Below, in pieces: positions 34,478 through 61,967 of a DNA stretch of 64,000 nt (position 1 is the stretch's first letter; every line of letters begins with the position of its first letter). The notes beneath the pieces are model-generated. The model did no database searches. It was not told the origin of the DNA and saw nothing but the letters and a program-made list of their open reading frames with translations. The position numbers were made by a program, and so were the translations under genes. This stretch comes from Taxawa tesnikishii (nom. ined.) (taxonomy: Eukaryota; Ascomycota; Dothideomycetes; Dothideales): positions 62,001-126,000 of the forward strand of contig JAPDRO010000030.1 in assembly GCA_030247885.1 (NCBI GenBank), read 5' to 3'.

Positions 34478-34636
34478 ACTAGAGTATTATAATACGTACG
34501 TCTTCGTTTAAGGCTTACTAATAATTATATAAACGACTACGTTAAAGCTTAACTTCCTTAGTATATATCTTAAACCTATTTACTTAGTACTTACTAATTA
34601 GTCCTTTACTACGCGTAGTAAGTAGATTATTAGTTA

Positions 34637-36483
34637 ACGTGTTTCACAAGTAAGTCGGCCACCCAAGTGAGTCGGCCACCTCGCGAAACTAGAACACCTG
34701 CGCAGCAACATTGCGCAATGCCTCAACAACGCAACGTGCAATACACCTACACTGAAGGAGATATATACCTTGCTATCTCTGATATTACATCCAAGCAAAT
34801 TCAAAGCGAGAGACGCGCTGCAGCAGTATATACTGTGCCTCGATCAACGCTGCAAGACCGACGCGCTGGACGGCGCTCTCGACGCGACTACGAGCCGAAA
34901 TCAAAGCGCCTTACAAAACTAGAAGAGGAGGTGATAGTACAGCGTGTGCTAGACGAGAGTCTACGTGGCGTACCGCCCTCGAAGGGAAACATACGAGATA
35001 TGGCGGATAAACTGCTAGGAGAGCGTGATGGGAAGCCTGTTGGCAAGAACTGGGTTGACAACTTCATTAAGCGTACGCCTGAGCTACGAACGCGATGGAG
35101 CCGTCCGTACGATCGCCAGCGAGCTGCCTGCGAGGATCCGGCGGTTATCCAGCCCTGGTTCGCGCTTGTTCAGTCAATGAAGGCGAAGTATGGTATCTCA
35201 GATGAGGACACCTACAACTTTGATGAATCTGGCTTTCTAATGGGCAAGATATCGTCTCAGCTAGTTGTTACAGGCTCAGAGAAACCTGGTAAACAGAAGA
35301 AACTACAGCCTGGCGATCGCGAGTGGGTTACCTTGGTACAAGGCGTCGGGGCTACGGGGCGCGTTATCCCACCCTTCATCATCTTCGCAGGCAAGGTCCT
35401 TATCTCAACCTGGTTCAACGATCTACCTCGTGACTGGATTGTTGAGGTCTCCTCTACTGGCTGGACTAACAACAAGCTCGCGCTCGCGTGGCTTAAGCAC
35501 TTCGATGCGCATACGAAGGCTTATACTGTTGGGGCATATAGGCTGCTTATTATTGACGGCCACGAGAGCCACTGCTCGGTCGAATTCCAGGATTACTGTA
35601 AGGAGAACAACATTATAGCTCTCTGTATGCCTCCACACTCCTCGCACCTACTGCAGCCACTTGACGTCGTCTGCTACTCGCTGCTAAAGCGCCTGTATGG
35701 CGACGAGATCTCAGCCTTGGCACGCAGTCGCGTTTACTATATCACGAAAGAAACCTTCCTAACTGCCTTTAAAGCAGCTTTTAAGAAGGCGTTCACACAG
35801 GAGAATGTCTGCGCAGGGTTTCGAGGCGCTGGGCTAGTCCCATACAACCCAGAGGCTGTGTTATCGAAGCTGGATGTAAGGCTGCGTACGCCAACGCCGC
35901 CTGCACCAGGTACAGTCGAATGGGAGGCGAAAACACCGCGCAACGCCAGCGAAATAGAGGCGCAGTCAACGCTAATTCGAAATCGCATGCAAAAACATCA
36001 GGGGTCTCCAGCAAGCTCTTTGGATGAGCAGGTTAGGCAGCTGACCAAGGGCGCTCAGCAGATAGCGCATGAGATGGTGTTAATGCGCGAAGAAACAGCG
36101 CGTCTGCGAGACGCAATTGAGGCGGCCACAAAGCGCAAGAGCCGCAAAAGGCAATACGTACGGGCAGAGGAGACTCTAACAGTAGGTGAGGTAGCTGATC
36201 TGGTCGCTGCCAAGGAGGGTAGCAGTGGTAATGACGGCGAGAAGGCTGCGAAGAGGGTGCGCGTAGAGCGGCGTTGCGGCCGTTGCGGCGAGACTGGGCA
36301 TAACTCCCGCACCTGTAAAGTAGAAATAGAGGATGCAGAAGATAGCGACGTTTCTGAATAATTATATACTGTTCTATAGACTGCTGTAAAGTGTTGTAGT
36401 GTTGCGCAATGTTGCTGCGCAAGCGTTCTAGTTTCGTGAGGTGGCCGACTCACTTGGGTGGCCGACTCACTTGTGAAACACGT
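34637..36483 (+). mobile_element. Intact pogo/Fot1-type DNA transposon Y, copy 1 (1847 bp)
   Basis: Terminal inverted repeats of 82 bp (34637-34718 and 36402-36483) differ at four positions, all transitions, and begin ACGTGTTTCACAAGT. TA is duplicated at 34635-34636 and 36484-36485. The end contains AAGTRAGTCGGCCACC twice, 17 bp apart. The interior is one uninterrupted transposase gene. Unlike everything around it, it has normal CpA/TpG content and no sign of RIP. It is inserted in the old F1 fossil. The second copy is at 60121-61967. Confidence 0.95.
34718..36361 (+). CDS. Pogo/Fot1-type transposase with C-terminal zinc knuckle, 547 residues
   Basis: The first ATG (34718) opens the frame with MPQQRNVQYTYTEGD; the longer frame from 34667 begins with GTG inside the terminal repeat and is not a eukaryotic start. 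Domains in order: N-terminal Psq-type helix-turn-helix (about residues 10-50), CENP-B/Tc5-type DNA-binding domain (about 63-123, ending KNWVDNFIKRTPEL), DDE_1 catalytic core with Asp169 (FDESGF), Asp280 (DGHESH) and Asp316 (LQPLD), a D-D-35-D spacing, then a charged coiled-coil-like tail (about 440-500) and a CCHC zinc knuckle at residues 520-533 (CX2CX4HX4C). All three catalytic Asp are present and there are no stops, so the enzyme looks functional for cut-and-paste transposition at TA in the nucleus. The A of the start codon is the last base of the terminal repeat. Confidence 0.93.
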   Translation: MPQQRNVQYTYTEGDIYLAISDITSKQIQSERRAAAVYTVPRSTLQDRRAGRRSRRDYEPKSKRLTKLEEEVIVQRVLDESLRGVPPSKGNIRDMADKLLGERDGKPVGKNWVDNFIKRTPELRTRWSRPYDRQRAACEDPAVIQPWFALVQSMKAKYGISDEDTYNFDESGFLMGKISSQLVVTGSEKPGKQKKLQPGDREWVTLVQGVGATGRVIPPFIIFAGKVLISTWFNDLPRDWIVEVSSTGWTNNKLALAWLKHFDAHTKAYTVGAYRLLIIDGHESHCSVEFQDYCKENNIIALCMPPHSSHLLQPLDVVCYSLLKRLYGDEISALARSRVYYITKETFLTAFKAAFKKAFTQENVCAGFRGAGLVPYNPEAVLSKLDVRLRTPTPPAPGTVEWEAKTPRNASEIEAQSTLIRNRMQKHQGSPASSLDEQVRQLTKGAQQIAHEMVLMREETARLRDAIEAATKRKSRKRQYVRAEETLTVGEVADLVAAKEGSSGNDGEKAAKRVRVERRCGRCGETGHNSRTCKVEIEDAEDSDVSE

Positions 36484-36850
36484 TATTTCTTTTATTATAG
36501 TCTTTATAGCGCTTATTTCTTACGTATTTAACTCGAGTATATATACTACTATTACCTCTTTTTCTATCCTTTATAACTTCTTTAAATTAAGCTTATAATC
36601 GCGTTATATAAGCTTTTATTACGTCGTTATCTTAGTATTATTTAGGGGACATTAAATACTTTAAATATATATTTTATACTATTAAGAAAGGTTACCTAGG
36701 TAGCCTTAATAATAAGGTATAATATACCTTTATTATAAGTTAATTATATATTACATTATAGTAGTATTATTATAATAGTCTAAAATAGTTATAATATTAG
36801 TAAGAAGTAATTACTTAGTAATAGTAGTTGCTTAGTAATAAAACATGTTA

Positions 36851-38001
36851 TATACTTTTATAATAATCTAATTTAGACCTTTTATTACTTAATAACTTAC
36901 TATTAAATAGTACTAAGCTACGTAAAGTAAACGCGCTATTTAATTCTATAATTAAGGCGATTTAGAATGTTTTATTTCTATAATACCTTAGTAAAAGTAT
37001 ACGTATAAATTTACGTAATATATTAGCTAAAATAATACTTTATTAATTTAACTATTACTATAGTATTATAAACTTATACTCTTATTATAATATTATATAA
37101 TAAATGTCGTAATACTAAGATCTTACTAGCTATAAGAAATTAAATTATTAAAATAGTTATTACTAGTATACTATAATATTAAATACGTAAGATCTTTAAC
37201 TTTATAACTAGTACTATTAATACTACTATTAAAAGGTCCTCTTAATAACTATATAGTATCTCTAAATCTCGTATAAGTTATTTATAAGCTTATATAAAGC
37301 GTATAAAGCGTATAATTATATATTATATACGTAAATATTTATTTTATAATTATAGCTAGCTTTTAAAGGATTTCTAGTTAAATTATAGTTATATTATAGT
37401 CTATTAAGTTTTAAAGGACTAAAGTATTAAGGATTAAATTACTAAGAAAAAACCTTTATTATTAGAAGTCTTAGTTAAAAGGAAAAGAAAATAGTATAAA
37501 TTATATAAAGACTAAAGTATTAAAGACTAGCTAAAAGTTATCTTTTTAAATAAGTACTTTATAAAGTATAAATCTAGTAAACTAGCTACTTATATATAGC
37601 GTATTACTAGTTAAGTATACTAGAAAGATAAGGTTTAACTATTTAATAAGAGTAAGGGTATACGTATAATAATATAGGTTAGTATATATAGTAACTATAA
37701 GACTAAATTAATTATTATACGTAGGGATATAAAGTTAAAGATATAAAAGTACTTAGTAAACTTAGATATTAATACTCTTACTATAGGCCTACTTCCTATG
37801 TATTATAAGGACTTACTATTTTAGTAAGATAATACTTAAATATATATAGCTAAAAAGATAGTAACTTTTTTAGAAAGGAAAGTATTAAACTAATAAAAGA
37901 CTAGCTTATATACTTACTAGATTTAAACTCTATTAAGTATATATAAACTATACTCAAAAAGTAACTCTTTTAGCTATATTCTAGTATAAATTTATAGAGT
38001 A
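36851..38001 (+). mobile_element. Tc1/mariner-type (DDE_3) transposon fossil
   Basis: The plus-strand translation near 37790-37980 keeps the order of the Tc1 core: SKLR.., then QDN.QIYIAKK (the QDNAxxHTAKK block with the second acid), then a segment matching the Y.PDLNPIE block. The left tip may be AAAGTCTTCC at 22597, separated from this part by the old F1 insertion. The right part is interrupted by the F1 copy at 38002. Heavily RIP-mutated, dead; ends uncertain. Confidence 0.55.
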
Positions 38002-39846
38002 ACATATTTTATTACTAAGTAGTTTACTATTACTAAGTAGTTTACTCTTATTAATATTATAATTATTATAAACTATTATAATAATACCTTTATAATATAA
38101 CGCGTAATTAACTTATAATAAAAGTATATTATACTTTACTATTAAGGCTACTTAAGTAACTCTTCTTAATAGTTAAAGATACGTATTTAAGGTATTTAAT
38201 ATTCCTTAAATAACTCTAAAACGACGACGTAATAGAAAGCTTATATAATATAACTATAAGCCTAACTTAAAGAAGTTATAAAAGATAAAGGAAAAGGTAA
38301 TAATAGTACGTATACTCGAGTTAAACTTACGAGAAATAAGTACTATAAGAACTATAGTAAAAAAATAGCTAATAATTTACTAGCTATATATAATAAAGAG
38401 CCTATTAGTAAGTACTAAGTAAATAAGTTTAAGATATATACTAAGGAAGTTAAGCTTTAACGTAGTTATTTATATAATTATTAGCGAGCCTTAAACGAAG
38501 ACGTACATATTATAATACTCTAGTTTAAACTAGTTAAAAAGATAAAGAAAAAGTATAATATCTTAAACGAAGATATATATAACTTTAATAAGATAAGCTT
38601 TATAATAAGTATAATTAACGCTTAAATAGTCTTTATAGACTCTAAGAAACGAAGTAATTCTAAAAGATATAGCTAAGTAACTAAGAGTAAGTTATAATTA
38701 TTTAAGGTATTTACATTATTAAGTAAGTTATCTTACTCTTTACTATCTTTAGTAATAAGGTCCTTATATTAAGCTAGTATATAAACTTACTTTATAAATA
38801 AGTACTTAAGACTAGTACTAATAGTTAGATAATAAATAAGCTTACTTTAAAGTAGTTAAAGTACTTTAACGCGTATATAAAGGCGGTTAAGTAAATATAT
38901 ACTACCTACTAATTATAGATAGTTACGAGAGTTATAATAGTTACGACTTTTATAACTACTATAAAGAATAAAAGATTATTATTCTTTATATACTCTTATA
39001 CTTATTATACTTATTATAGCTACTTAACGTAGGCTATTTTACCCCTTAAAGTAAGTATATAATGCGGAAATTAATAGCTAGTTATAGTACTTTATTACGT
39101 AAGTTAAGAAAGAAGCCTTCTTACTAGTCTTTTATATTACTTTTAATAAGGTAGTTATAAAGAATAATATCTAAGTAAACTTTAGAGGCGCTAGATTAGT
39201 TCCTTATAACTTAGAGTAAGTACTATTAAAGCTTAACGTAGTACTTTATACGCTAATACTTATACTATTAGAAGTTACCTTATAAGAGTCTAAAATACTA
39301 GCTAATTTAAAGGAAATAAAAGCGTAAATAACGCTAGTTTACGAGCGTATATAACTATATAAAGATTTACCTATTTTACTTCTTTTATAAGCTATAAATT
39401 TACTTACTAAAGGTATAGTTATTATAAGTTATAAATTAGAGTTATAAATAAGGAAAATCGCAAGTCTTTAGAAGTTAATTAAGGCGTTAATAAAGTAACG
39501 TAATTATAAAAGAAAGTATATTTAAATAGAGAAAAGTCTTATAGTAAGTAATATATAGGATTTAATAGTTAATAAAGATAATAGTAATAATAAGAGTATT
39601 AAATAACTTATAAAGAAAATATATACGTAAAGGTACTATAAATATTATAGTAAGACTAGCTATAATACGCGTACTTATATTATAGAAATAGTAGATTTAA
39701 ATAATAGTAATACTTTTAAATAGTACTATAAGTTAAAGTATATTTTTATATAGTATTATAATATAGAGGTAATAGTCTATAATAGTTATAATATTAGTAA
39801 GGGCGAACCGCTTAGTAATAGTAGACTACTTAGTAATAAAATACGT
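38002..39846 (+). mobile_element. Family F1 pogo-like fossil, complete length 1845 bp
   Basis: Same structure and exactly the same length as the copy at 25232, with TA on both sides (38000-38001, 39847-39848). The left tip is mutated to ACATATTTTATTACTAAG and the right tip is close to the consensus. Transposase remnant on the plus strand with many RIP stops. Confidence 0.85.
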
Positions 39847-39848
39847 TA

Positions 39849-40420
39849 ATAATAATAACTTTATATATAAAAGAATAAAAGATACTCTTATATATACTTA
39901 AAATTATATTAGTAGTAATATAATATATAACTATATTATAAAGTATAGTAAATAGACTTTAAGCTTACCTTTAAAATAATAGCTAGTATACTATATACTA
40001 AAGAAAATTACTATTTTTAAGTTACTATATAAACTTCTAAGATTTAAATTATTTTATACTTAGTTTACTAGTTAATTACTAGTATTATAAGTATAAAGTA
40101 TAAAGTAATATATTAGAGAGTAAGCTTCTAAATTTAAAGGATTTATTAAAGGGTAAGTTTATATTTAATATAAAAGAAATACTTAAGATAATAAAGGTAA
40201 TTAAAGCGAATTTATTAACTAAAAAGCTATGTAAATAACTACGTAAGTATTTAATTAAAGAAGTAGTAAGAGAGAAAGAAGAAGAAGTAGCCGAAAATAT
40301 ATCTAGTAACTTAGATTTTAACTATATTATTATTACGACACGTAGATAGTAATTAAATCCGCGAAGGTAGTGAGTTAGTAGTTAACTACCCCACCTGGTT
40401 AACTACCCCGCGGTTTACGT
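39849..40420. mobile_element. Right part of a further pogo-like element (family F3)
   Basis: It ends at 40420 with a non-mutated terminus, CCCCGCGGTTTACGT, then TA. On the minus strand the end contains GGGGTAGTTAAC twice, 17 bp apart. The last 150 bp of the plus strand look Lys/Glu-rich, as in a transposase tail. The left part was not found and is presumably beyond the F1 insertion or lost. Confidence 0.5.
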
Positions 40421-40422
40421 TA

Positions 40423-40947
40423 TATTTATAGCGAGAACGTGCGGGGTTGACTTACTAATACAATTGTTGGCCTGATCCGAGAAATAGTGTGCACAACGCA
40501 ATGCAAGTCGAACGGACCGTATGAGAGCCCTCTTGGTTATTGACCCTGTCCCGCTCCTGCTGAAGGCTTCGCTCTATTCATCGGAGGGTGCTTAAGCGCG
40601 TACTAAGCATAGACGAATACCGACTACTAATCACCAATGGAGTAACAAGACTATTGGCACGACGAACTTGGTAGTGTACTAGTAGCACCATCCCTGCCAG
40701 TTAGGCCGAGGCCGTGTGCGTACTCCAACCGACTGCTACGCAGCGGTACCTTTGCACTTGAAGGAAAGGTAGTGATGAGGTTGGTTTGCCACCGCCATCG
40801 AATATGTTCCCTCCTTCTCATTTGCTTCATATGCGAGCTATACCACGTCTTTTTCGGGCAGGAAGAGTTTTTCATCCTGTCTGTTGCAGTACTCAGGTTC
40901 GAATGCGAAAGCTTCCGCACCCTTCTGAATCTTGAAGACACCGAAAG
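40423..40947. other. GC-normal spacer upstream of the Ppo relic
   Basis: It starts abruptly at the end of the AT-rich block. The frames at 40651-40941 (minus) and 40772-41113 (plus) show no protein blocks. It may contain the former promoter of the oxygenase gene. Confidence 0.4.
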
Positions 40948-43900
40948 ATGCCGTGCGCTCGGTCATTCCTCTCCGCCCTTTTGTGCTCTGCACTTATCTC
41001 GGCGGACCCGTGGCCGTACGATCGTTATCATAGCCAAAAACACAAGACTGTGTCGTTTCAAGCCAATCGCTCCCTGCCAGAGTTCGACTCCCAACCGGAT
41101 GATCTATTTGTAGCCTGGCTTCACGGCGTCATAGGCAGCCACTCAGAGTTGCAACTCGCCTTCAAAAACGAAACCATCCGGTCACACGTCACATCGATAG
41201 ACGAGCTTATTAACCATCTCGCCGTTCCGGACTCTGAGTCATAGCCACTGGAAAAGGGCTCGCTGTTCGGACCAATCCTTCCAAACTTCCCTCACCAGGA
41301 GGCCACACAGCTGTTCGAACACCTAGGATATCCTTTGGACCCTCGCTGCACGGTTGACCGAAACTGGTGGTAATACCGGACTCATGATAGATCGTGCAAT
41401 TGGCTTAAGAAAGACGAGACCTATGAAGGGGCGATCGGATCCGCGAAAGCGCGTGACTATAGCTAGCACTATTATGCTGACGGTATCTTAAAGCCCAGAG
41501 AGGGGCCTAATCCGCGGGCTGTTAGCAATGCGTTCTTCAAGAGGAAGAAAGCGTTGTATTATGAGCACACCCCGCTACTGTTGAGGATAATCGAAGTAAG
41601 ACGATACCGAATGTTCCTCTCGCTTCGTTCGCCTCGAGCCGACCCACACTGATACTGCAAAACAGTTCATCATGCACGATGTTACGTACAATTAAGATTC
41701 TACTAGCGAGTTCATTGATGTCGGTATGCTAGAAGATGAGAAGGATTTCTATCCCAATACGACACTGCGAGTATGGCGGACCGCAGCGGTTCCAGGTACT
41801 GGCTCGTCTAAGGAAAATCCCCGCGAAAACATCAACATGGCAACCACCTAGCTCGACATCTCATCTCTATACAGAAATACGCCCGAAGTTGCTAGCGCAC
41901 TGCACTCTTTTTCCAGTGGCAAGCTCCTCACGCAACAAGTTTAGACGCGTGGTACCAACGCCAAAAGTTCCTATCTCCCCTACAATTCCATGAACGTGCC
42001 CACTCGCACTAGGCCCGGGGTAGATGTTAAGACGTTGTTCGCGGGTGGTGATCCCCGAACCAATGAGGATTGGATGATGCTAGGCGTTTACACTCTGTTA
42101 TTAAGGGAGCATAACAGGTTGTGCGATATTCTCGCCAAACAACACCCCGAATATGATGCCGAGAAGATCTACCAGACAATCCGACTAGTCATATCAGCTA
42201 AATACGCTTTGATGGCCAATTCATACTAGATGGCCTACTAGACGGACAAGATGCCTTGGCCGCGCGATGATGGTATGGAATGAGACTACAAGGTTCTCTA
42301 ATGTTACTAACCCTGCCCCCTGGCTTCCCTTTATATCGACAGATGTACGGAGAGAGTGCGCTGAAGATCAATCCGGCAAACACTTACCCGTAGCCGCTGG
42401 TCACCAAGAGAGGCAAACATATAGTAGTCTCTGCGGAGATGGCTGTAATTCATCGCTTTCATGAGTTCAACATATCAAGCTTCCCGATTAAGGACGCCGC
42501 CAACAACACCCTTTGGGAGCAGGACTTGTTTAGGACAGGGTTCAATGCAAGTGGGTTTCTTCAGACCGGCCTTGAGAACGTGCTCCGCGGCATAGTCGCA
42601 TCTCATATCCCAAATTTCAAGCGCGGTGTAGACGAGAACTTCCGTACGGCTAGCGTTTACCGAGGCTAACCGTTTGATGTGGCAACATGGAGCATTATTC
42701 ACGAGCGTGAACAAGGTTTACCAACTTTCAACAACTATTTTCGAGCGTACAATGCAGAGGGTAAGTATTGCGCTAGAGGGGATACCTGATGAGACGGTTA
42801 CTAACCGACTTGCAGATCCGAATGTTGAAGTGCCCATACGTGAGCGTTTCGAGGACTTCTCGTCCGACCCGGAAATGGTAGATAACTTGAAGAAGCTATA
42901 TATCTCGCCGGACGACGTCGACCTCGTTGTCGGGATTTAGCTCGATAAAGAGATGTTCCCCGGTACTACTATGCCAAAAATTTGCTCTCATCATCTCTCT
43001 ATTTAGTCTCTTCGGGATGGGCAACTCGGATAGGTTCTCGATCGGTTTTAGTATGATGCGCTGTTTCCTCGTCGATAAGCCATGAGACTATTATCTAAGC
43101 AATGCTCTAGAGGAGCTTCTCTGGGCCCCCAAGAAGGTTCCCGGATTCCCTAATTTCCGCTTTTACGACACTTTCTGGATCAAAGAGCTCGACCTCCAAG
43201 CCCACGGGGCGAACCTGCTCTAGAGGTTGATTACGGAAAACAGTGAGATTAATTGCGTACGGCATTCGCCTCTGTTTCCGGCCGATCCCATCACAAACCC
43301 AATCCTTTGCTCCTTACCGAAAGCAAGTCCTAATGTCAAAGGACTCCTCTTCACTGGCTTGGAACTCGTACTTTCACTCGTTAGACAGAGACGCACAAAG
43401 CTCATGGTCTCCGCTATTGCTGTAGTTCTTGCGATCGTCGCTTTTACATAGTTGAAGAAAAACCATCGCCCTCTAGTACTAAGTGGCTAGCCTGTTCTTA
43501 GCAACGCCATAGCCTTTCAGAAAGACTTAAAGATACTCCTTCTAAGTGGCTTCCAGAAGTACGGCGCCACACTATCGAAAGCTTTTAGCATTAAGCTTGC
43601 ATTACTTACGCACTTTGTTATGACGTAGCCTGCTAACCTTGAGCTCATGAAAGAAGACGATGCTTACGAAGTGAAGTTTAGCCTCTACTGCTTCTTGCAA
43701 GCCATCAACTTCGCCATGATCACGAAGAAGGAGAATTTTGAGTCGGACCTCTACACGAAGATAATTCGCATGCATCTGAGCGACCTAGCCACTATCGTCG
43801 CTTTTGGAAAGGTCATGGAAGACGCGGCGAAGCTATATATCTCGACGAACCCACTTGTAGCAACAGGGTCATCGCGTCAATACGACAGCTTGGACGAATA

Positions 43901-44906
43901 TTTCGCCAAGTATATCACGTTTATCGTCTCTAGGTGCGTAGTTGGGCCGAGTGGCTATGACAACAGCGAGTTACTAGAAACCTTCTAGCAATTCAATGAT
44001 CATGCTGTAAAAGCTATGGGCATCTCTTCCTTGTTCCCTTATGCTTTTAGTTCCTGGCAGCTTTCGACGTGAATAAGGACTTCAAGACCGTTCGCAGCGT
44101 GCTTGGTCCTACAATTGCGGCTACTCGAAGAAGGGAGAAGGCTCATGGGACCTCGGTTGCGGATGTTGAGCCCCAATCCTTGCGTTTCATTATAGACGTT
44201 GAAGATAATTATAGGCGTGTTACTAGTAAGCTGGGTCATTTCAGTTCTTTATAAGCATGCGAACTACACCATTAACATCTCTGAATCATTCGTCAGATCT
44301 CATAGCTATTGTCGTCTGGGGCGGCCTCGTTAATCTCCAATTAACCCTCACGTCGACGATCCTCGACATTATCAACTAGCCTGGCCTACAAGACAGCGTT
44401 ATCTCCTCATCACTATTGGCCAACACCTCCAACCTCGACACCTTCTCCCCGAAACCCGGATGGGCTACCCTGCGCAGCGCAATGTTTGAATCTATAAGAC
44501 TCTATGGCCCAATTACCGGACCCGCGCGTATCTGCTCGGAAGCTATTGCGCTGCCCTCGGACCCCTGGCAGACTCTGCCGAAAGGTACTGTGGCGACGCT
44601 GTCGGCGTACTGGACGCACCGCCGGCGTCTGCGTGGGGAGCAAACGCTGCTAGCTAGCATCACGAGCGGTTTTTGGAGAAGGAGCCGCCCATCGGGGAGG
44701 TAGCATTTGTAACGTGGGGGCTCAAGGGCCCGCATACCTGCCCAGGTAGATGGTTCGCGCAGGCGGCGATTTAGATGCTTGTCAAGGTGTTGTTGGATAC
44801 TTATGCGTTTGAACCCGAGCGGGTGCTGCGAGATGAGGAGAAGTACACCTATTCTGCAGGGAATGTTAGTAGAAGGCAAGTAAGGACGACTGTATATAAG
44901 AGATAA
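40948..44906 (+). pseudogene. Psi-factor-producing (Ppo/linoleate diol synthase type) dioxygenase-P450 fusion, broken
   Basis: Blocks along 4 kb follow the family order: an N-terminal part from ATG 40948 (SLPEFDSQPDDLFVAWLHGVI), DVKTLFAGGDPRTNEDWMM and LREHNRLCDILAKQHP (41990-42229; heme peroxidase domain), RFHEFNISSFPIKD and LENVLRGIVASHIPNFKRGVDE (42439-42670), EVPIRERFEDFSSDPEMVDNLKK, then the P450 part with NFAMITKKENFESDLYTKIIR (43647-43988), ExxR as FESIR near 44490 and the heme block CPGRWFAQAA near 44740, ending at TAA 44904-44906. The enzyme would oxygenate linoleic acid and isomerise the hydroperoxide to oxylipins that control sporulation. Many stops and frame changes, mostly TAG or TAA at Trp or Gln sites, make it dead. 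The heme Cys is still encoded. Intron positions cannot be told from frame changes. Confidence 0.85.
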
Positions 44907-45090
44907 GATGAAGGGGGCTAGTTCATATGACTCTATGGACGTATTGCATGACTCTTTCAAACGACAAACGAGACACAATAATGTTACGTGCTACGTATAC
45001 CCTACTAAACTGCTACTTTGATAGACACGTCCGCTTAGCGGAACTAAGTATAAGGATTCGATATAAGTTGCTTGGCTATTTAGTACTGTA
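44907..45090. other. Short spacer
   Basis: Sequence after the stop of the Ppo relic up to the TA next to the F2 stub. Nothing recognised. Confidence 0.4.
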
Positions 45091-45184
45091 ACGTCAACCG
45101 CGGGGTAATATACTAGACGGGATAGTATATTATCAAAACGCGCGCTTCTTAAATTTAACTACTATCTACGAACTACGATGATAA
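45091..45184 (-). mobile_element. Family F2 terminal stub (94 bp)
   Basis: It starts ACGTCAACCGCGGGG right after TA and follows F2 for about 94 bp, to GAACTACGATGATAAC, then stops abruptly at GC-normal DNA. It may be the scar of a truncated element or of a breakpoint. Confidence 0.75.
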
Positions 45185-45234
45185 CCTAGAGACAAACAAC
45201 AAAGGCAACGAGTAAGACTACTTCCTAAAGTCCT

Positions 45235-47093: not shown

Positions 47094-47185
47094 CGATCTG
47101 GCACAACGCAATGCAGGATACGGGGAAAGAGCGAAGGAGAATATAGGCAAGGCGCGTAAACGGAAGGACGACTTACACGTCATCT
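47094..47185. other. Spacer upstream of the unrecognised gene
   Basis: Short GC-normal stretch, possible promoter of the minus-strand gene. No motif identified. Confidence 0.3.
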
Positions 47186-47345
47186 AGCTGGCACTCTCTT
47201 TGAGAGAGTGCGGCGCTGAGCCATTTATTGGCATCGAGGGAAACGGCCAACTCGTACCGCCTGCTTGTAAGAGCAGCGGCATGATAAAGACGGGATGCAG
47301 GAAACAGGGAGGACGGTCACAGCTGTCGGGGTGGTTCTGATTCAG
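47186..47345. repeat. Diverged dispersed repeat, copy B
   Basis: It aligns with 10869-11020 in the same orientation over about 150 bp and contains a short local inverted repeat (ACTCTCTTTGAGAGAGT at 47194-47210). Origin unknown. Confidence 0.45.
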
Positions 47346-50860: not shown

Positions 50861-53150
50861 TCTTTTTGAATAACTCCCATTGTTTGGAGAGAGTTCTAAG
50901 GTATGTAGTTGATCCATGATTGTTGATTGGAAACCAGCTATCCATTGCGACACGAAAAGACGCGTTCCACTGTCCGCAGGTTTATGGGGTGTCTCTTTAT
51001 GGGCAAGTCGAAGCGTCAGTTGAATAAAAGAGAACTTTGACGATGATGAATAGTCACGTCGTGTGCGGGAAGGGGGTGGAAATCGCTAGTCGACGCGTTG
51101 AACACCCCAAGTTTTGTTCGCGAACTTGTGACATGGTCTCGTGATACGTCACGTGGACCAACCCTGGATCTGCCCTTTTGTTTCGCTGCTGTGTGTCAAA
51201 TGCAGTCGCTCGCTGTTTTCGTGAACCTAATATATACATCTTTGGGCGGACCGGTCCAATAGCTTCGAGATTGGTTTAACAGTCGAGTGACCAAAAACTA
51301 GAATGACGGAAGAGAGTTGACGATTTCGTAGCTATATCCTAGTTCAGCCATAAAGATGAATGCCTGTCAACATATCTTTTCTCTGCCGTGCTCTTAATCC
51401 CTATATAAAGGGTGCGAAGAAGTAGCTTAGCGTTCTGTAGGCTGTGGTGATTGACTTTCATGCTAGCCCAGCGCAGTCACCTTCACTCTTCCAAGATTCT
51501 TCCATCCACGAAACGGGTCTCTCCGGAGTAATGTCCCGGAGCCAGTGTGTCCAGACGATGTTACCGGACAGAATAGTTTACTCGATAACTCCGGCAGATC
51601 GCACCGGAACCCCTTCATAAGCTTCACAACCTGACTCAAGAATTGGTTATCTTGCTTCGGAAACCAACATGATGGATACAGGTTGTTGAGTAAGTCCACG
51701 CTTTGCGTTTCCAGCGTTTCTCGACTTGAAAAAGAGGACAAAGGCGAATTTGTTCGAGGAGCCAGAACACTCGATTGCATGGTGATACAGCGTAGACTCC
51801 CCATCGCATAGCCTCAAGACCAATTTCGGTCTTGGCAAACGGATGAAGAGGGTGAACTCACCTTTGATAGTTGGTAATCCATCATTTTGTTCCTCGGAGT
51901 TCTTACTGGCATTTGCAGCACCCCGGTGGCCCTATCTCGCCTCTAGCCAGACAGCCCAGATGTATGATGCACGATGGTCGTGCCCAACAGGCATAGAGCC
52001 GCAAAGGGTTCGCCTGCATTTTCCATCTCCATGACTTGATAATGCAAGGATTACTTGGTCGCAGGGCGGCTGCCAAGAACGCTATCCTATAGAAGAAGCA
52101 ACCGTACCTACTCGCAACATCCAGGAAAGGTCATCATTTCCGCACAACTCAAGCCACTCGTGGGGCCATGGCGCTGAGACACATCGACTTTTTCTCCTTG
52201 ATCGAGTAAGACCTCGTCCTAGAGTTCGTCGCAGGCTTGATCTCGGTACGAACATGAGGGAATAGCTCAGACACGTCCGTATGCGCGCCTGTGACAGCGG
52301 CCTTGGAAGTTCGGGCGAGGTGTTAATTTATGTCCTCGAGAAGGCACGTCTGTATGTGCCTGACAGCGGGACTAATACAGACGCTCACCGGCTGGGAGGT
52401 GACTGTTTGGATCCGAGTGACAGTCAGCTTGCGATGTCAGATTAGCAGACGACAAGAAGTTCATCGCATTGTTGCAGCTGAGATAGCCTGAGTGGGTTAC
52501 ATTTATGAGTATGAGGAGCGGCTATGGTCACACCGAAAACCCATTCGGTTCCATAGCAAGCTGAAACCACGCGGAGAGCGCTCGCCAACGAGATCAGGCA
52601 GGTCTGCCTAGGCTCGTTCGTTCATGTGCGTATGTGCTACCCTTTCCTAGGACTGTCCTCACTTGTGGGAGACTCTTGATTGTTCCTAGCCATTTATCCT
52701 GGTATAGACCCATCACAGTCAAGGTAGTTGTTCTGCGCACTGATGCAGTTGCGCTTTTTGTGACCTGAGAATACTAAGTCCGAATACTCGGATCGTTGAC
52801 ATGCCACGGAGCGTGGTAAGATCGGCGGTCCTACTTGAGGTATTGCTGTCTTAACTCCACACATAGATCAGGACCGTGTAGCGAAGCTCCTGGTTGAGCA
52901 ATCGCGTGACGCTACTTGCTGTCTGACAGGTTGCGGCAGTGTCGATCTCTCAACGGTTTGGGATCGACGCATCCTTGCTCGTCATCGAGGACGTGGAGCA
53001 TCCGCGCCGTTTTCGGCTCGGTCCCTAGCTCTCCCCGTGACACCAAGCTTTTGGCTACCTAAGGCTACCTAAGAATAGCCTCATTAGCGCTGTAGCAGGT
53101 CCTAGTGTCTCACTCTAGGCGACAGCCTCAATTAATCGATTATCTACTAG
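50861..53150. other. GC-normal DNA, no supported gene
   Basis: The only frame with reasonable composition is 51463-51804 (minus, ATG start, 113 codons, MGSLRCITMQSSVL), which matches nothing I know. 52035-53110 has no frame over 60 codons. Near 53057-53076 GGCTACCTAA occurs twice in tandem. At about 53150 the DNA becomes AT-rich. Confidence 0.4.
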
Positions 53151-53277
53151 ACCGGTCTTAGATACTACCCTTTACTATTAAGTATATTATCTAAAGACCT
53201 TATACTATTTTACTTATATAACTACCTTATATAATTACTAAAAATTAATTTACTTATACTTAACTAATATTAGTATA
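53151..53277. other. AT-rich border
   Basis: Short AT-rich stretch leading to the TA (53276-53277) next to the F1 copy. Confidence 0.4.
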
Positions 53278-55125
53278 ATATATTTTATTACTAAGTAGTC
53301 TACTATTACTAAGCGGTTCGCCCTTACTTATATCGCAACTATTATAAACTATTATAATAATACCTTTATAATATAACGCGTAATTAACTTATAATAAAGG
53401 TATATTATACCTTATTATTAAGGTTACTTAAGTAACCTTTCCTAATAGTTAAAGATATATATTTAAGGTATTTAACGTCCCTTAAATAACCCTAAAATAA
53501 TGACGTAATAAAAAGCTTATATAATATAATTATAAGCTTAACTTAAAGAAGTTATAAAAAATAAAGAAAGAAGTAATAGTAGTATATATACTCGAGTTAA
53601 ACTTACGAGAAATAAGCGCTATAAGGACTATAATAAAAGAAATAGCTAATAATTTACTAGCTATACGTAGTAAAGGGCTTATTAGTAAGTACTAAGTAAA
53701 TAAGTTTAAGATATATACTAAGGAAGTTAAGCTTTAACGTAGTTATTTATACGATTGTTAGTAAGCCTTAAATAAAGACGTACGTATTATAATACTCTAG
53801 TTTAAGCTAGTTAAGAAGATAAAGAAAAAGTATAATATCCTAGATAAAGATATATATAACTTTAATAAGATAGACTTTATAATAAGTATAATTAACGCTT
53901 AAATAGTCTTTATAAGCTCTAAGAAATAAAGTAATTCTAAAAGGTATAGCTAAGTAACTAAGAGTAAGTTACAATTATCTAAGGTATTTATACTACTAAG
54001 TAAACTATCTTACTCTTTATTATCTTTAGTAGTAAGGTCCTTATATTAAGTTAGTACGTAGACTTACCTTATAATTAAGTACTTAAGACTAGCGCTAATA
54101 GTTTAACGATAAATAAGCTTACTCTAAAGTAGTTAAAGTACTTTAATACGTATATAAAGGTACATTAAGTAAGTATATACTACCTACTAATTATAGATAG
54201 TTATAAGAGTTATAATAGTTATAACTTCTATAACTATTATAAAGAATAGAAGATTATTATTCTTTATATACTCTTATACTTATTATACTTATTATAGTTA
54301 CTTAATATAAGCTATTTTACTTCCTTAAAGTAAGTATATAACGCGGAAATTAATAACTAATTATAGTACTCTACTACGTAAGTTAAGAAAGAGGCCTTCT
54401 TACTAGCCTTTTATATTACTTTTAATAAGGTAATTATAAAGGATAATATCTAAGTAAGCTTTAAAAGTGCTAGATTAGTTCCCTATAACTTAGAGTAAGT
54501 ACTATTAAAGCTTAATATAATACTTCGTACGCTAATACTTATACTATTAGAAGTTACCTTATAAGAGTCTAAAATACTAGCTAATCTAAAGGAAATAAAG
54601 GCGTAAATAACGCTAGTTTACGAGCGTATATAACTATATAGAAATTCGCTTATCTTACTTCTTTTATAAGCTATAAATTTGCTTACTAAAGGTATAGCTA
54701 TTATAAGTTATAAATTAGAGTTATAAATAAGGGAAATCGTAAGTCTTTAGAAGTTAATTAAAGCGTTAATAAAGTAGTATAGTTATAAAAGAAAGTATAT
54801 TTAAATAGAGGAAAGTCTTATAATAAGTAATATATAGGATTTAATAGTTAATAAGGATAATAGTAGTAATAAGGGTACTAAATAGCTTACAAAGAAGATA
54901 TATATATAAAGGTACTATAAACATTATAGTAAGACTAGCTATAATACGCGTACTTATACTATAAAAATAATAAATCTAGATAATAGTAATACTTTTAAAT
55001 AGTACTATAAACTAGAGTATATTTTTATATAATATTATAATATAGAGGTAATAGTCTATAATAGTCGCGATATTAGTAAGAGCAAACCGCTTAGTAATAG
55101 TAAATTACTCGGTAATAAAACACGT
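53278..55125 (+). mobile_element. Family F1 pogo-like fossil (1848 bp)
   Basis: The left tip is mutated to ATATATTTTATTAC and the right tip reads GTAATAAAACACGT; TA is present on both sides (55126-55127 at right). It is 3 bp longer than the other three F1 copies, so there are small length changes. Transposase remnant on the plus strand, many RIP stops. Confidence 0.83.
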
Positions 55126-55127
55126 TA

Positions 55128-55392
55128 TTTATTCTTTAATTGCTAAGTTTCCGTAAATATTAATAGTTATATATACTAGGAGTAGTTATATTTAAGAAGT
55201 CTAATAAAGATTATAGTCTAATTAACTTAATTTATTTACTTTTCTTTTACTAAGTATAAGTACTTATTTATATAGTTATTTCTTCTTATATTTACTAGTT
55301 ACTACTTAATAAGATAATTAGTAAAACGAACTAGATACTAGCCTTATATTAAGACTATAAGTTTATAATATACCTTAGATACTAGTAAATAT
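55128..55392. other. AT-rich DNA between F1 and Gypsy fossils
   Basis: 265 bp of CpA/TpG-poor DNA, nothing recognised. Confidence 0.4.
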
Positions 55393-58300
55393 ATTATAAG
55401 GGTAATTTATAGTAATATATAAAACGCTAAAACTTAGTAAATTATAGTAAAAACTAATTATTATCTTTCTCTAGGGGGCCTCGAGCTCCCTTATAAGTAG
55501 GACGAGTTTACTTTATAAGTAAGTTCTAAGCGTTACGTAACTACTCGTAATAATTACCTTCCTTCTAAGTAAACTATCTCGACTTATAGCGTTACTTTAA
55601 CTTAGCGCTAACGTTACGTAGGGACCCTATAAGCTAATATCGGCGTTACGTATTTTACCTAAATAATAATACTATAGGATTCTTAACTAATAAGAGTAGT
55701 AATATACTTACGTAATACTATTTACTTACTTATATACTACCGTCGATTTACTTACGCGCTATTAACTATTATACCTCTTAAGACCTTATTTAAGCGCTTA
55801 ATCTTAACTTAACTAATTATACTAGTAAGTAAGAGTAATATTACTTCCTTACTATTAGTAGCTACTTTACGTACTACTTCTTCTAATTTAAATATTTAAC
55901 TTAAATAAAATACTTATAAGCGCTATATAATCTATATAGTTACTAAAGGTATTATTCCTAATACGCGACGTATATATAACTTACTAACGCTTTAAATAAG
56001 TAATAAATATAACGCGAATTATAACCTTATAACTACACGTAAGTACTCTTATTATATTTAGGCTTATAAGCTCTATATAGCTATTATTAACCCTTAGCTC
56101 TTCCTAGTTATTAATAAGGCGTATATCGCTTATAAGAAGCTAGTAAAGCTTTACTATATTAATAGTATTAAGGAGGAGGATATTATAAAGTTAAAGGAAG
56201 TTTTAACTTAAACTTAAGTTACTACTACTATTACCCTTAATACTTAGTAGTATAATTATAATAAGGTCTTAAGCGATATTCCTTTAAAGTACTATTATAC
56301 TATTACTAGTTTATAGTCTTTAAACTTAACTTACTATAAAAAGGTAATTTATACTTACTTTACTCTTAAGAATATAAAAGCTTATATAGCTAAGTTCCTA
56401 GGTATATTTAAGGTATATATAACTATGTTTTACTTCTATTACGCTTACTAACTACTAGTATTTCTTTAGCGCTTTACCCTCGCTACTTTTACCTTTATAG
56501 TTAAGAAGGATTTTAAGGTAAAAAGTTTTAAGATAAAAGTTTAAGAAATAGGAAATTAAGGACTTATACCTTATAGCCTTTATAAAGTCGGTATATTATT
56601 ATAGCGCCTTCGAGTCGTCTTTATAGTACTTCCTATTATATAATAAGAAATAATAATAAATTTTAAGAGTAAAGAGCCTACGAGTCCTTTTTTCCTTACT
56701 TATACTTTACTTTTATTATAATTATAACTTACTATTAGTTTACTTCCTCTAGCTAATATTTATTAGTTTCTTTTTCTTCTTCTTTATTTATATTTCTTTT
56801 ATACTTTATAAGTAGCTATCTTATCTTATAAGTTTTTATATTATCCTTTAGTACTTATTTATTATATTCCTTTAGTTAGCCTTTCTATTTTATAAGGAAA
56901 AATTTAATTTCCTTTCTTATTTTTTAGTCTAATATTAGTTCTACCTTATACTTTTATTTACTTTTTATAAGGTCGAGTAATAGTAGCTCCTTTACTAGTT
57001 TGCTATTATTTTACTTATAATATACTTCGAAGAGAAATATATAGAAGATATTATAGATTCTATATACTAATAAGAATACTAGGTAATACGCTTATAATTC
57101 GATAGTAGTAAGTACCTTAAAGGGTCTTATAAACTTATATAAGAGCTTCTTATTTAGTTCGTTAAGCCGGAGATTTCTAGTTACTAATATTATTATATCT
57201 TTAACTTTATATATCTTTAGCTAATATCGTTTATTATATACTTTACTACTTACTTTAAATACGCGTCTCTAGTACTCCTTTAGCGCTACGCGCTCTTCCT
57301 TTAGTTATTAAACTCGTTTTATAACTACTAGTACTTCTCCTTTTCTAAGCTTATTTCGAGCCTTTATATAAAGTTTTAAATTATATTTATAAAGGGCGTA
57401 AAAGGGGCTTATATAAGTCGTAGGGTACTTATTATTATTATAAGTAAACTCTACTAATAGTAGTTATTTTACTTAGTCTACTTACTTATTACTGTAGTAA
57501 TAGCGTAAGTATTACTTTAGCGTCTAATTTTATTTCTTTATTTACCTATCTATTTATAAGTAAAACGCTATATTAAGCCTTTAAGTTATATATACTACGT
57601 AGTAAAAGTCTAACTAGAATATACTTATAAATATAAAACTTCTATTTAATATAATACTAAATAGTATACTATACTAGCTAACTATATAGTTTATTACGAG
57701 ATCGAGTATATTTAATATTATATAAGTCTTATTTATAGTAATATACTTTACTATCTTTATATAGTAATTAATAATAGTAAGGATTATATTATAGATACTT
57801 TTACCTTTTTTACTTAGTAGTAAGTTAGTAATAAAGTCTATAGATAGTTCCTACTATAGCCCTATAAAATATAATAAGGAAGTAAGCTTACTATAAAGCT
57901 AGTAACGCTTTACTTTTATCTTCTAATATACCTTATATATATATATATACTTAGCTATATTTACTCGTAGAAATAACTAGTAGTACTTCCTCTTTAGTAA
58001 GGTAATAGTCTTTTCTTTACTAAAGTAGCCTACTAGCGTATTATCGTAATATATACGTAATACTTATACGCGTAATACGTTATCTTTAAATATATAAAGA
58101 GAATTATCTTTATATAAGAAGTTTCCTTTTAGTATTATATAGTTACGCTATTAGTAGCTTACTAGTAGCTCGTAGTTACGGGGTCTTTATACTTTTAAGC
58201 TAAGGGGTCTTTTAAAAGAAGTATAAGAATTATATCTTTAACTTTTAGCTAGGGATTATCTTAAGGGTTTTTACTATAATAATTATAACTATAGCGATTT

Positions 58301-60120
58301 TAAGTAAACTTAGTATTATATTAGTACTTTAAAAACGTTTCTCTTACGCTACTTTTTAAGTAAGGAGTAACTAGTTAAGGCCTTTTCTTAATAAGAGTTT
58401 AATCTTATCTTTATAATACTTTTTTAAGGTATTTATAGCTATTATAGTAACTCGTTAAATTAACGGTAATTTACTTATATTATTACTTTGCCCCTCTAGG
58501 GCTACTAGCTTATACTATAGTATAGGGAGGAGATAACTTATCGTATCTTCCCTTATATTATAGTCTAAGTACCTCGATAGTATATTAGTAGGATTTAACT
58601 TCCTTACTTAATACTTAATTATAAAATCGAAAGTAAATAAAGTAATAGCTTATTTAACTTACCTTCTATTAAGTTACTTTATCTTTATAAAACCCTTTAA
58701 GTTATTATAATTTAATAGTACTTAAATTAAGTACGAGGCTCCTTTAAAGTAGTAGCGCTAATACTTAAATGCTACTACTATAGCTAGTAATTCCTAATTA
58801 TATACTTTATAATTTTACTCTATTAGAATTATCTTTTAAAACTAAAATATAATTAAGTACTAGTTCCTACTACTATTATAGTCTAGTAGTAACTAAGAAA
58901 GTATTACCCTTAAAGTAAACTTTAATACGTTACTTTTAAACTATAGGTATACTACTAAGTTATAATATATTAAAATAGAAGCTTTCGTAAACGCTATTTT
59001 TAATATATAAAACGCTTCCTCCTCGGAGTTAGTTTACTAAATAGGCCCTAATTTCCTACTCTTATAACTACCCTTTAGTAACTTAGTTAACGTAGTTACC
59101 TTCTTTAAGTAGTTCTTAATAAACTATTAATAAAAGTTAGTAAACCCTAGAAACTATTATATATTATAAATCGTTTTTAAAGTTAACTATTTCTTAATAG
59201 CGCGTACCTTACTCTTATTTATTACGACGCCTTTATAGCTTATAATAAAACTAAAGAATTCTACTTAATATATAAAGAATTCGTATTTCTTTTAGCTTAT
59301 AAATAGTATATACTTCCTTAGTTACTTTAATATAACTCGTAGGTACTCTATATACTCTTTCCTTATAATACTATAAATAAGTATATTATTTAAATATACT
59401 ATATAAGAGACGTCTACTAAACTTACTAATACTTTATTAATATAAGCTTAGAATATTACTAGGGTATTAGTTAAGCGAAATAGTATAACTAAATACTCGA
59501 AGTATTTATAATATATATAGAATATAATCTTCTACTTATCGCCTTACTTAATTAGTATATAATAGTAAGTATCTTTTAAGTTTAACTTAAAAACTACTAC
59601 GCGCTACTAAGTTAATTTAAAGTCTTACTAATTAGAGGTAGTAAATAGCGATTTTTAATAGTAATCTTATTAAGACCTTTATAGTTAACGTATAGCCTTA
59701 CGCTCCTATCCTTCTTTAAAATAAATAAAATCGGCGTACTTACTATAAACTCGAATTATTAAATTTAACTATTTACCTAAGTAGTAGCTAAGTAATTTTA
59801 AAGTATCTTTAACTCCCTCTTAAAAGGTTATATAAAGGCTAAAAGGGTAGCTTCTTACCTTTTATTAAGTTAATTATATACGTTACTCCTTCGAGTCGTA
59901 AAAGGTTTACTATATCCTTATAGTTAAAAATATCCTCTAAATTTGTAACCTTTAAAAGTAAGGCCTCCTTATAAGACTCCTTACGTAACTCTTTATATAG
60001 ACTTTTACGTAAATCTTTACGTAAACTTATAATAGTTATATAGAAAATAGTAAAGACTTAAGGCTTTCCCTTATAGTCTTATATAAACTAGTTAAAGTCT
60101 AAGATCTAGTAGATACTATA

Positions 60121-61967
60121 ACGTGTTTCACAAGTAAGTCGGCCACCCAAGTGAGTCGGCCACCTCGCGAAACTAGAACACCTGCGCAGCAACATTGCGC
60201 AATGCCTCAACAACGCAACGTGCAATACACCTACACTGAAGGAGATATATACCTTGCTATCTCTGATATTACATCCAAGCAAATTCAAAGCGAGAGACGC
60301 GCTGCAGCAGTATATACTGTGCCCCGATCAACGCTGCAAGACCGACGCGCTGGACGGCGCTCTCGACGCGACTACGAGCCGAAATCAAAGCGCCTTACAA
60401 AACTAGAAGAGGAGGTGATAGTACAGCGTGTGCTAGACGAGAGTCTACGTGGCGTACCGCCCTCGAAGGGAAACATACGAGATATGGCGGATAAACTGCT
60501 AGGAGAGCGTGATGGGAAGCCTGTTGGCAAGAACTGGGTTGACAACTTCATTAAGCGTACGCCTGAGCTACGAACGCGATGGAGCCGTCCGTACGATCGC
60601 CAGCGAGCTGCCTGCGAGGATCCGGCGGTTATCCAGCCCTGGTTCGCGCTTGTTCAGTCAATGAAGGCGAAGTATGGTATCTCAGATGAGGACACCTACA
60701 ACTTTGATGAATCTGGCTTTCTAATGGGCAAGATATCGTCTCAGCTAGTTGTTACAGGCTCAGAGAAACCTGGTAAACAGAAGAAACTACAGCCTGGCGA
60801 TCGCGAGTGGGTTACCTTGGTACAAGGCGTCGGGGCTACGGGGCGCGTTATCCCACCCTTCATCATCTTCGCAGGCAAGGTCCTTATCTCAACCTGGTTC
60901 AACGATCTACCTCGTGACTGGATTGTTGAGGTCTCCTCTACTGGCTGGACTAACAACAAGCTCGCGCTCGCGTGGCTTAAGCACTTCGATGCGCATACGA
61001 AGGCTTATACTGTTGGGGCATATAGGCTGCTTATTATTGACGGCCACGAGAGCCACTGCTCGGTCGAATTCCAGGATTACTGTAAGGAGAACAACATTAT
61101 AGCTCTCTGTATGCCTCCACACTCCTCGCACCTACTGCAGCCACTTGACGTCGTCTGCTACTCGCTGCTAAAGCGCCTGTATGGCGACGAGATCTCAGCC
61201 TTGGCACGCAGTCGCGTTTACTATATCACGAAAGAAACCTTCCTAACTGCCTTTAAAGCAGCTTTTAAGAAGGCGTTCACACAGGAGAATGTCTGCGCAG
61301 GGTTTCGAGGCGCTGGGCTAGTCCCATACAACCCAGAGGCTGTGTTATCGAAGCTGGATGTAAGGCTGCGTACGCCAACGCCGCCTGCACCAGGTACAGT
61401 CGAATGGGAGGCGAAAACACCGCGCAACGCCAGCGAAATAGAGGCGCAGTCAACGCTAATTCGAAATCGCATGCAAAAACATCAGGGGTCTCCAGCAAGC
61501 TCTTTGGATGAGCAGGTTAGGCAGCTGACCAAGGGCGCTCAGCAGATAGCGCATGAGATGGTGTTAATGCGCGAAGAAACAGCGCGTCTGCGAGACGCAA
61601 TTGAGGCGGCCACAAAGCGCAAGAGCCGCAAAAGGCAATACGTACGGGCAGAGGAGACTCTAACAGTAGGTGAGGTAGCTGATCTGGTCGCTGCCAAGGA
61701 GGGTAGCAGTGGTAATGACGGCGAGAAGGCTGCGAAGAGGGTGCGCGTAGAGCGGCGTTGCGGCCGTTGCGGCGAGACTGGGCATAACTCCCGCACCTGT
61801 AAAGTAGAAATAGAGGATGCAGAAGATAGCGACGTTTCTGAATAATTATATACTGTTCTATAGACTGCTGTAAAGTGTTGTAGTGTTGCGCAATGTTGCT
61901 GCGCAAGCGTTCTAGTTTCGTGAGGTGGCCGACTCACTTGGGTGGCCGACTCACTTGTGAAACACGT
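60121..61967 (+). mobile_element. Intact pogo/Fot1-type DNA transposon Y, copy 2 (1847 bp)
   Basis: Identical in structure to the copy at 34637: 82-bp inverted repeats (60121-60202 and 61886-61967), TA at 60119-60120 and 61968-61969. The only base difference I found is C at 60324 against T at 34840, a silent Pro codon change. It is inserted between the reverse transcriptase and gag parts of the RIP-mutated Gypsy fossil. Confidence 0.95.
60202..61845 (+). CDS. Pogo/Fot1-type transposase, second copy, 547 residues
   Basis: The protein is identical to that encoded at 34718-36361: helix-turn-helix and CENP-B-type DNA-binding domains, DDE_1 core with Asp169, Asp280 and Asp316, and a C-terminal CCHC knuckle at 520-533. 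The start is again the first ATG, with its A as last base of the terminal repeat. No stop or shift, so the enzyme should be as functional as its twin. The surrounding Gypsy fossil is on the other strand, and no host promoter is visible, so transcription would have to start within the element's end. Confidence 0.93.
   Translation: MPQQRNVQYTYTEGDIYLAISDITSKQIQSERRAAAVYTVPRSTLQDRRAGRRSRRDYEPKSKRLTKLEEEVIVQRVLDESLRGVPPSKGNIRDMADKLLGERDGKPVGKNWVDNFIKRTPELRTRWSRPYDRQRAACEDPAVIQPWFALVQSMKAKYGISDEDTYNFDESGFLMGKISSQLVVTGSEKPGKQKKLQPGDREWVTLVQGVGATGRVIPPFIIFAGKVLISTWFNDLPRDWIVEVSSTGWTNNKLALAWLKHFDAHTKAYTVGAYRLLIIDGHESHCSVEFQDYCKENNIIALCMPPHSSHLLQPLDVVCYSLLKRLYGDEISALARSRVYYITKETFLTAFKAAFKKAFTQENVCAGFRGAGLVPYNPEAVLSKLDVRLRTPTPPAPGTVEWEAKTPRNASEIEAQSTLIRNRMQKHQGSPASSLDEQVRQLTKGAQQIAHEMVLMREETARLRDAIEAATKRKSRKRQYVRAEETLTVGEVADLVAAKEGSSGNDGEKAAKRVRVERRCGRCGETGHNSRTCKVEIEDAEDSDVSE

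Follow-up and report, generated by a model that had tools for sequence, protein, structure and literature searches.

The window analyzed here, a stretch of 64,000 nt from contig JAPDRO010000030.1 of Taxawa tesnikishii (nom. ined.; assembly GCA_030247885.1), contains two copies of a pogo/Fot transposon of 1847 bp that are free of repeat-induced point mutation (RIP). Copy A lies at positions 34637–36483 and copy B at 60121–61967, both on the + strand. By sequence comparison, their sole difference is at element position 204, which is T in copy A and C in copy B. The change is silent (codon CCT or CCC, Pro in both), and because all 14 other tabulated un-RIPped copies in the genome have C at this position, the T is private to copy A. 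Each copy contains a transposase gene of 547 aa (34718–36361 in copy A and 60202–61845 in copy B, both + strand, stop codon included) that starts with an ATG at element position 82, and the two translated proteins are identical. The left and right terminal inverted repeats of copy A, of about 82 bp, occupy 34637–34718 (+) and 36402–36483 (−). Compared end to end, they match at 78/82 positions, or at 86/100, and each carries two AGTCGGCCAC motifs. The repeats of copy B, at 60121–60202 (+) and 61886–61967 (−), have the same sequence as those of copy A. The flanks contain TA target duplications at 34635–34636 and 36484–36485 around copy A and at 60119–60120 and 61968–61969 around copy B.

The transposase matches Pfam DDE_1 (E 2.9e-26), as well as HTH_psq and HTH_Tnp_Tc5, both above the Pfam cut-off, and a CCHC knuckle is located at aa 520. 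Its acidic triad is D169-D280-D316, with 35 residues separating the last two members, which corresponds to DD35D spacing. D169, which precedes the Pfam DDE_1 match, was assigned from the NFDESG motif. A search of solved structures returned nothing at E 0.01. An earlier interpretation of the window, made from its letters and hereafter called the sequence-only reading, had described two copies of equal length separated by one silent C/T change, with perfect reading frames, all catalytic Asp residues, and TA duplications; the structure given above bears out each of these points.

Host DNA and empty sites

The GC content of the window outside the elements is 0.349, versus 0.528 for copy A. In RIPped 2-kb stretches, the ratio (CA+TG)/(AC+GT) is only ~0.01–0.03, and the 150-bp flanks on both sides of copies A and B contain 0 CA/TG versus 13–24 AC/GT per side. 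Blocks of the window chosen as RIPped (30,000 bases) have a GC content of 0.252, a (CA+TG)/(AC+GT) ratio of 0.03, and 0.215 TA per bp; the corresponding values for blocks chosen as un-RIPped (16,000 bases) are 0.515, 1.11, and 0.050. The sequence-only reading held that everything around the two insertions is saturated with C-to-T changes. This is correct for the flanks but too broad for the window, in which ~6–16 kb and 42–48 kb are un-RIPped by the same indices and 4–6 kb and 48–54 kb are mixed. Altogether, 72 of the 128 stretches of 500 bp in the window are RIPped.

RIPped paralogues of both insertion sites, lacking the element, are found inside the same window. The paralogue of the copy B host DNA at 29449–30046 (−) forms a gapless 598-bp alignment over the junction with 89% identity. 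Copy A has two such counterparts, one at 53342–53802 (−; 87% identity over 461 bp, one gap) and one at 3511–3986 (+; 82% identity over 478 bp, three gaps). A single TA is present at the junction in these empty sites, and insertions A and B therefore postdate the dispersal of the host repeats. The window contig, labeled C24 in the genome survey and 266,415 bp long, is bounded on either side by telomeric repeats and may therefore be a whole small chromosome.

Untouched and ruined copies across the genome

The element was searched for in one assembly of 29.37 Mb and 34 contigs. The copy counts are lower bounds, with 40 of 110 and 40 of 188 candidates scored in the two element searches. At least ten copies (L009–L018, which include A and B and are called the burst copies below) are 99.95–100% identical to copy A if the single-base indels in L016–L018 are disregarded. 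They occupy different sites on nine contigs, eight of them beyond the window on eight other contigs, and the full 547-aa frame is present in 8/10. A genome-wide search with the 1847-bp element was the check that the sequence-only reading had proposed, and it yielded the near-identical, un-RIPped copies that recent activity would predict. The same reading had named an assembly artefact as an outcome that would overturn it. The copies are not a chance matter, and duplication in the assembly is unlikely because the flanks differ and near-identical copies occur at the eight further sites. Two burst copies at different sites, L017 (C4:31406-33251) and L018 (C10:689447-691293), have in common a 1-bp deletion at position 348 that breaks the transposase, which suggests that a broken copy was moved by the transposase of other copies, unless both carry the same read error in a GGG run. 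L018 is apparently nested in another copy of the element, one that has been RIPped.

Other un-RIPped copies lie close to this group. L019 (C16) and L020 (C2) share one sequence, which departs from the burst copies at 9–10 sites, and L021 (C7), L022, and L023 (both C2) contain one or two stops each. A split un-RIPped copy on C2 (L024) was excluded from the variant and distance tables. TA is present on both sides of all 33 copies that align over positions 1–1847.

The same element also occurs at 41 or more RIPped places, 40 from the second element search and one from the first. Of these, 23 (L025–L047) were read base by base, and the remaining 18 were called RIPped from their 86–90% identity to the RIPped copy L041 alone. 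Four of the copies read (L040, L042, L045, and L046) are partial and were set aside, leaving 19 full-length RIPped copies. L045 and L046 have 58 and 25 transversions, more than the other RIPped copies read, and therefore represent more diverged lineages.

The two classes of copy differ sharply in their RIP record. None of the 238 CpA/TpG sites shows a RIP-direction change in the burst copies, versus 95–99.6% of these sites, on both strands, in the 19 full-length RIPped copies. CpG is the second most affected context, with ~25% of sites changed in the least RIPped copy and 63% in the most RIPped, followed by CpT and CpC (~11–30%). Summed over the 19 copies, there are 8583 RIP-direction transitions versus 12 transversions; on average, 0.63 transversions per 1847 bp separate a RIPped copy from the young ones. 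No full-length copy read falls between 18/238 changed sites (L023, a 94% relative carrying 24 transversions) and 226/238 (L025). CpG sites in the RIPped copies are mostly either kept or fully converted to TA. Residual CA/TG dinucleotides number 3–15 per full-length RIPped copy (L045, which is partial and diverged, has 46), and this scarcity indicates that until recently RIP kept completing the conversion of such sites. The small transversion distance between RIPped and young copies shows that the element was resident earlier, was destroyed repeatedly within a short span, and is no newcomer. The suggestion in the sequence-only reading that the element may be recently introduced thus fails, as the ruined places record earlier rounds of the same element.

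The young copies also share a type of landing site. All 11 copies L009–L019, and so 10/10 of the burst copies proper, lie in RIPped DNA, with at most one CA/TG per side in their 150-bp flanks. By the criterion used for the survey of C2 described below, 0/20 mid-contig samples of other contigs are RIPped, and 1/20 has a low CpA index; these 20 positions were hand-picked and missed the chromosome ends, so that the RIPped fraction of the genome is poorly known. TA is approximately fourfold denser in RIPped DNA (0.215 vs 0.050 per bp). As the sole cause of 11/11, however, TA density is too weak at an assumed RIPped fraction of 10–20% (probability 4e-6 to 7e-4), although the value rises to 0.04 at 40%. 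Targeting to silent chromatin, or the loss of harmful insertions, may add to the TA bias, and selection against hits in genes would yield the same landing pattern. Excerpts of the account of Fusarium poae by Vanheule et al. (2016; PMC4994206) describe Fot5-A elements (DTF_Fot5-A) that consistently land in RIPped or low-GC DNA. Our literature search found no paper evidently on TA targeting into RIPped DNA, within a limited listing that is no proof of absence.

Timing and ancestry of the burst

Taken together, these data make it highly probable that a cut-and-paste pogo transposon of the Fot family (FotC-like) multiplied once the last effective round of RIP was over. In the proposed sequence of events, a host with RIP-capable-looking genes has used RIP to saturation, and the element has passed through rounds of jumping followed by RIP that left its ~41 or more ruined places. 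One copy may then have escaped, or have been re-formed by recombination with a related lineage, and this copy would have amplified to the ten or more near-identical copies on nine contigs over a period of growth that lacked an effective sexual cycle. New copies would have inserted at TA within DNA that RIP had already mutated; TA is about fourfold denser there, and an insertion probably does little harm. Current activity of the element is possible, given the open frames, the intact ends, the clean paralogous empty sites, and an identical pair on two contigs.

Three DNA-methylase genes were found in the genome, which were classed from motifs, and not from a tree, as RID-like (L048), DIM-2-like (L049), and DNMT5-like (L050). 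An in-frame stop in L048 falls within a GTAAGT...CAG intron-like stretch, the catalytic frame of L049 is open, and an IBR match in L050 is under the Pfam cut-off. All three genes look intact, and RIP appears to be available to the host. The simplest reading is therefore that the burst took place during growth without an effective sexual cycle; the pause in RIP would then reflect a lack of recent meiosis, and transposase may be made now. A mating-type alpha-box gene (L051) is located at C21:199314, and a second, partial alpha-box copy (L052) at C1:1665865. There are nine HMG-box matches, none on C21.

Several observations weigh against a simple burst after RIP. L021 on C7 is 98.5% identical to copy A and has un-RIPped flanks, and just 16/238 CpA/TpG sites are changed relative to copy A. 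These 16 make up nearly all of the RIP-direction differences between the two (16/18 at CpA/TpG, binomial 1.4e-8); six are common to other un-RIPped copies, and the other ten are private and all on one strand. L021 thus appears to bear a light load of RIP, and RIP is therefore not always saturating. The variant sites are a further difficulty. With the C2 relatives L077 and L078 (66–68% DNA identity) as the outgroup, 300A, at a transversion site, unites the burst, L021, and 22/23 RIPped copies but not the C2 copies, whereas 1134T, 1528G, and 1786A unite the burst with L019 and L020. Three other variants (298G, 477C, and 556A) unite L019, L020, and L022. Most RIPped copies and L021 have 355G and 1528A, unlike the burst, which differs from most RIPped copies at 355, 1528, and 1786. 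Because these sites fit no one tree, the 5′ and 3′ parts of the burst element have different histories and different nearest relatives, and a simple single-source history fails. Exchange between C2-type and other copies probably occurred, and its direction could have been either way. Duplicated DNA that has escaped RIP is the remaining objection. The subtelomeric repeats, at 40 or more places, are un-RIPped, and so is most of C2 where it was sampled; some duplicated DNA may therefore have been homogenized after RIP or be exempt from it, not merely new. It is mainly the subtelomeric repeats that make a date after the last RIP round a matter of inference and not of proof. The sequence-only reading stated that copies A and B must have moved after the last effective round. 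The contrast between 0/238 and 95–99.6% makes that order of events the most likely one, but "must" is slightly too strong because, with subtelomeres and C2 un-RIPped, exemption from RIP or its idling is possible.

The subtelomeric unit is a 1.1-kb stretch that is ~99–100% identical at 40 or more places (40 of 51 candidates were scored). Of the 40 scored, the 35 on contigs of known length all lie within ~2.1 kb of an end. It was read at the ends of C1, C2, C23, and C24. It carries a frame resembling a telomere-linked RecQ-type helicase, a label based on a DECH motif; the first part is of low complexity, which in itself gives a low CpA index. The near-identity of the unit implies that RIP has not acted on it since its latest copying or homogenization.

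Contig C2 is 1,163,921 bp long with telomeric repeats at both ends. Its left 1.5–2 kb is 98.6–99.5% identical to the ends of C1, C23, and C24, and C2 therefore very probably belongs to the present genome. Of 132 sampled 500-bp stretches of C2, 122 are un-RIPped. The ten RIPped ones comprise nine from its final 8.5 kb and one from the left telomere; the right end (L054) is AT-rich, RIPped, and ~68% similar to the outer part of the subtelomeric sequence. Among the 83 pogo-type matches listed (79 of 641 candidates were scored in this survey), the 33 on C2 have at most two stops each, whereas 34 of the 50 elsewhere have at least 24 (0/33 vs 34/50, Fisher 4e-11, some rows being pieces of one element). 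Several pogo subfamilies have un-RIPped copies on C2, which also bears other transposase frames (DDE_3, DDE_1). One 2-kb segment of C2, containing a beta-eliminating-lyase gene, recurs on that contig nearly unchanged and un-RIPped (bits 3603 vs 3608 for the self match). Un-RIPped transposable elements (TEs) on C2 thus stand beside RIPped TEs in the core, except at its RIPped right end, and by this comparison C2 looks like a RIP-free supernumerary chromosome of the Fusarium poae type. A second pogo family (L079, L080, and L081) also has un-RIPped copies, with 0 differences over 1558 bp between C1 and C2 and one gap on C15. A G-alpha piece of C2 (L073, C2:1060001-1062000) has a 79% relative on C12 (C12:1576281), and similar HMG-box matches over the same model range lie at C2:281597 and C12:1750122. 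There is a weak hint that part of C2 may derive from a C12-like chromosome.

Rival histories and known systems

The contrast between C2 and the other contigs raises the question of where the family survived. A RIP-free reservoir, in which the family persists on the 1.16-Mb, supernumerary-like C2 and re-seeds the RIPped chromosomes, is a substantial possibility, though we would not bet on it. The telomeres at both ends of C2, the 10/132 RIPped stretches, and the scarcity of heavily stopped pogo matches among those scored all fit such a refuge, as do the identity of L020 on C2 with L019 on C16, the second pogo family shared exactly between C2 and C1 and nearly so with C15, and the near-unchanged beta-eliminating-lyase segment. 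Excerpts of PMC4994206 describe the same division of labor in Fusarium poae. However, the burst copies are 0 transversions from L021 on C7 and 3–4 from the C2 copies L020 and L022, and site 300 places them with L021 and the RIPped copies, leaving only the 3′ part (1134, 1528, and 1786) with L019 and L020. A direct C2 origin of the burst, expected from the stop counts, is weakened by these transversion distances and by site 300, and a mosaic origin takes its place. The apparent direction of exchange is in any case biased because relatives off C2 have been destroyed by RIP, and with 79 of 641 candidates scored, distant RIPped copies on C2 were possibly missed. C2 may nevertheless help to keep the family alive. 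In a wider version of this idea, RIP would be compartmentalized and would feed its own transposon: CpA-to-TpA change raises TA fourfold and builds harmless landing pads, C2 and the RIP-exempt ends preserve un-mutated DNA, and C2-type recombination supplied part of the burst element, in a cycle of refuge, burst, and destruction. We regard this as a speculative scheme that is doubtful as a whole.

Other histories fare less well than amplification after the last effective RIP round. If a recent defect had abolished RIP for good, all young duplications would accumulate, and unrelated un-RIPped duplications do exist (the pogo burst, the second pogo family, the subtelomeres, and C2). The intact appearance of the RID-, DIM-2-, and DNMT5-like frames makes such a loss unlikely, and the subtelomeres, being multi-copy, may be homogenized or exempt. 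The undamaged state of copies A and B and their GC content of 0.528, compared with 0.349 elsewhere in the window, might suggest a fresh horizontal arrival in the lineage. That difference mostly reflects RIP, as the element is close to un-RIPped host DNA in GC content (0.515), and deeper relatives with 66–68% DNA identity are present on C2. A recent horizontal introduction is contradicted by the 41 or more RIPped places of the same element and was rejected; we consider it very improbable. That one real copy was duplicated or homogenized in silico, during assembly or polishing, is scarcely credible: ten copies are almost letter-identical and the single-base indels in L016–L018 could be read errors, but the flanks differ at every copy, copy A has its private silent base, and the 23 RIPped copies that were read have not been homogenized. 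Carriage by a Starship was considered through a DUF3435 (PF11917) search that gave no match and is uninformative, as the controls also gave no match.

Excerpts of a survey of pogo elements (PMC7386202) give a size range of 1.2–5.2 kb, DD35D for the Fot family, and TAA duplications for most Fot elements. The element described here duplicates TA, unlike most Fot elements, and does so in 33/33 copies. In this respect and in its length of 1.8 kb, its HTH_psq and HTH_Tnp_Tc5 domains, its DD35D triad, and its medium-length terminal repeats, it resembles the FotC and FotD clades of that survey. The TA duplication together with terminal repeats of ~82–100 bp, and not a tree, points to a tentative placement in FotC, a clade whose terminal repeats measure about 100 bp.

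Bursts after RIP and bimodal sets of copies are a known kind of phenomenon, which is well resolved here. One 1847-bp sequence is found both RIP-saturated and untouched, with almost no other mutations. This amounts to a natural experiment in which the RIP dose can be read directly for each copy and the burst can be placed after the last RIP round. The added value lies in this per-copy record and in a nearly RIP-free companion chromosome. The crapaud element of Podospora, as presented in excerpts of PMC10787394, likewise has RIPped and un-RIPped copies with few intermediates and bursts that follow RIP; it is an LTR retrotransposon, whereas the present case is a DNA transposon with a count of CpA saturation for each copy. 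Cladosporium fulvum has a heavily RIPped genome with extra chromosomes (PMC10823647, in part), and C24, at 266 kb, is similarly rich in RIPped DNA. Its accessory chromosomes are more RIPped than its core ones, however, and C2 is the opposite. The closest parallel is Fusarium poae, in which, by the excerpted account (PMC4994206), a RIP-free supernumerary genome feeds transposons into a RIPped core. Both systems combine a RIPped core with RIP-free, TE-rich, supernumerary or supernumerary-like DNA, an exchange of TE copies, and landing in RIPped or low-GC DNA. They differ in that the evidence here comes from a single contig with both telomeres in one assembly and in that the burst is nearer by transversions to a copy off C2. 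If C2 is dispensable, Taxawa tesnikishii would be another case like Fusarium poae, in which transposons and duplicated genes find shelter on a RIP-free chromosome that accompanies a RIP-saturated core.

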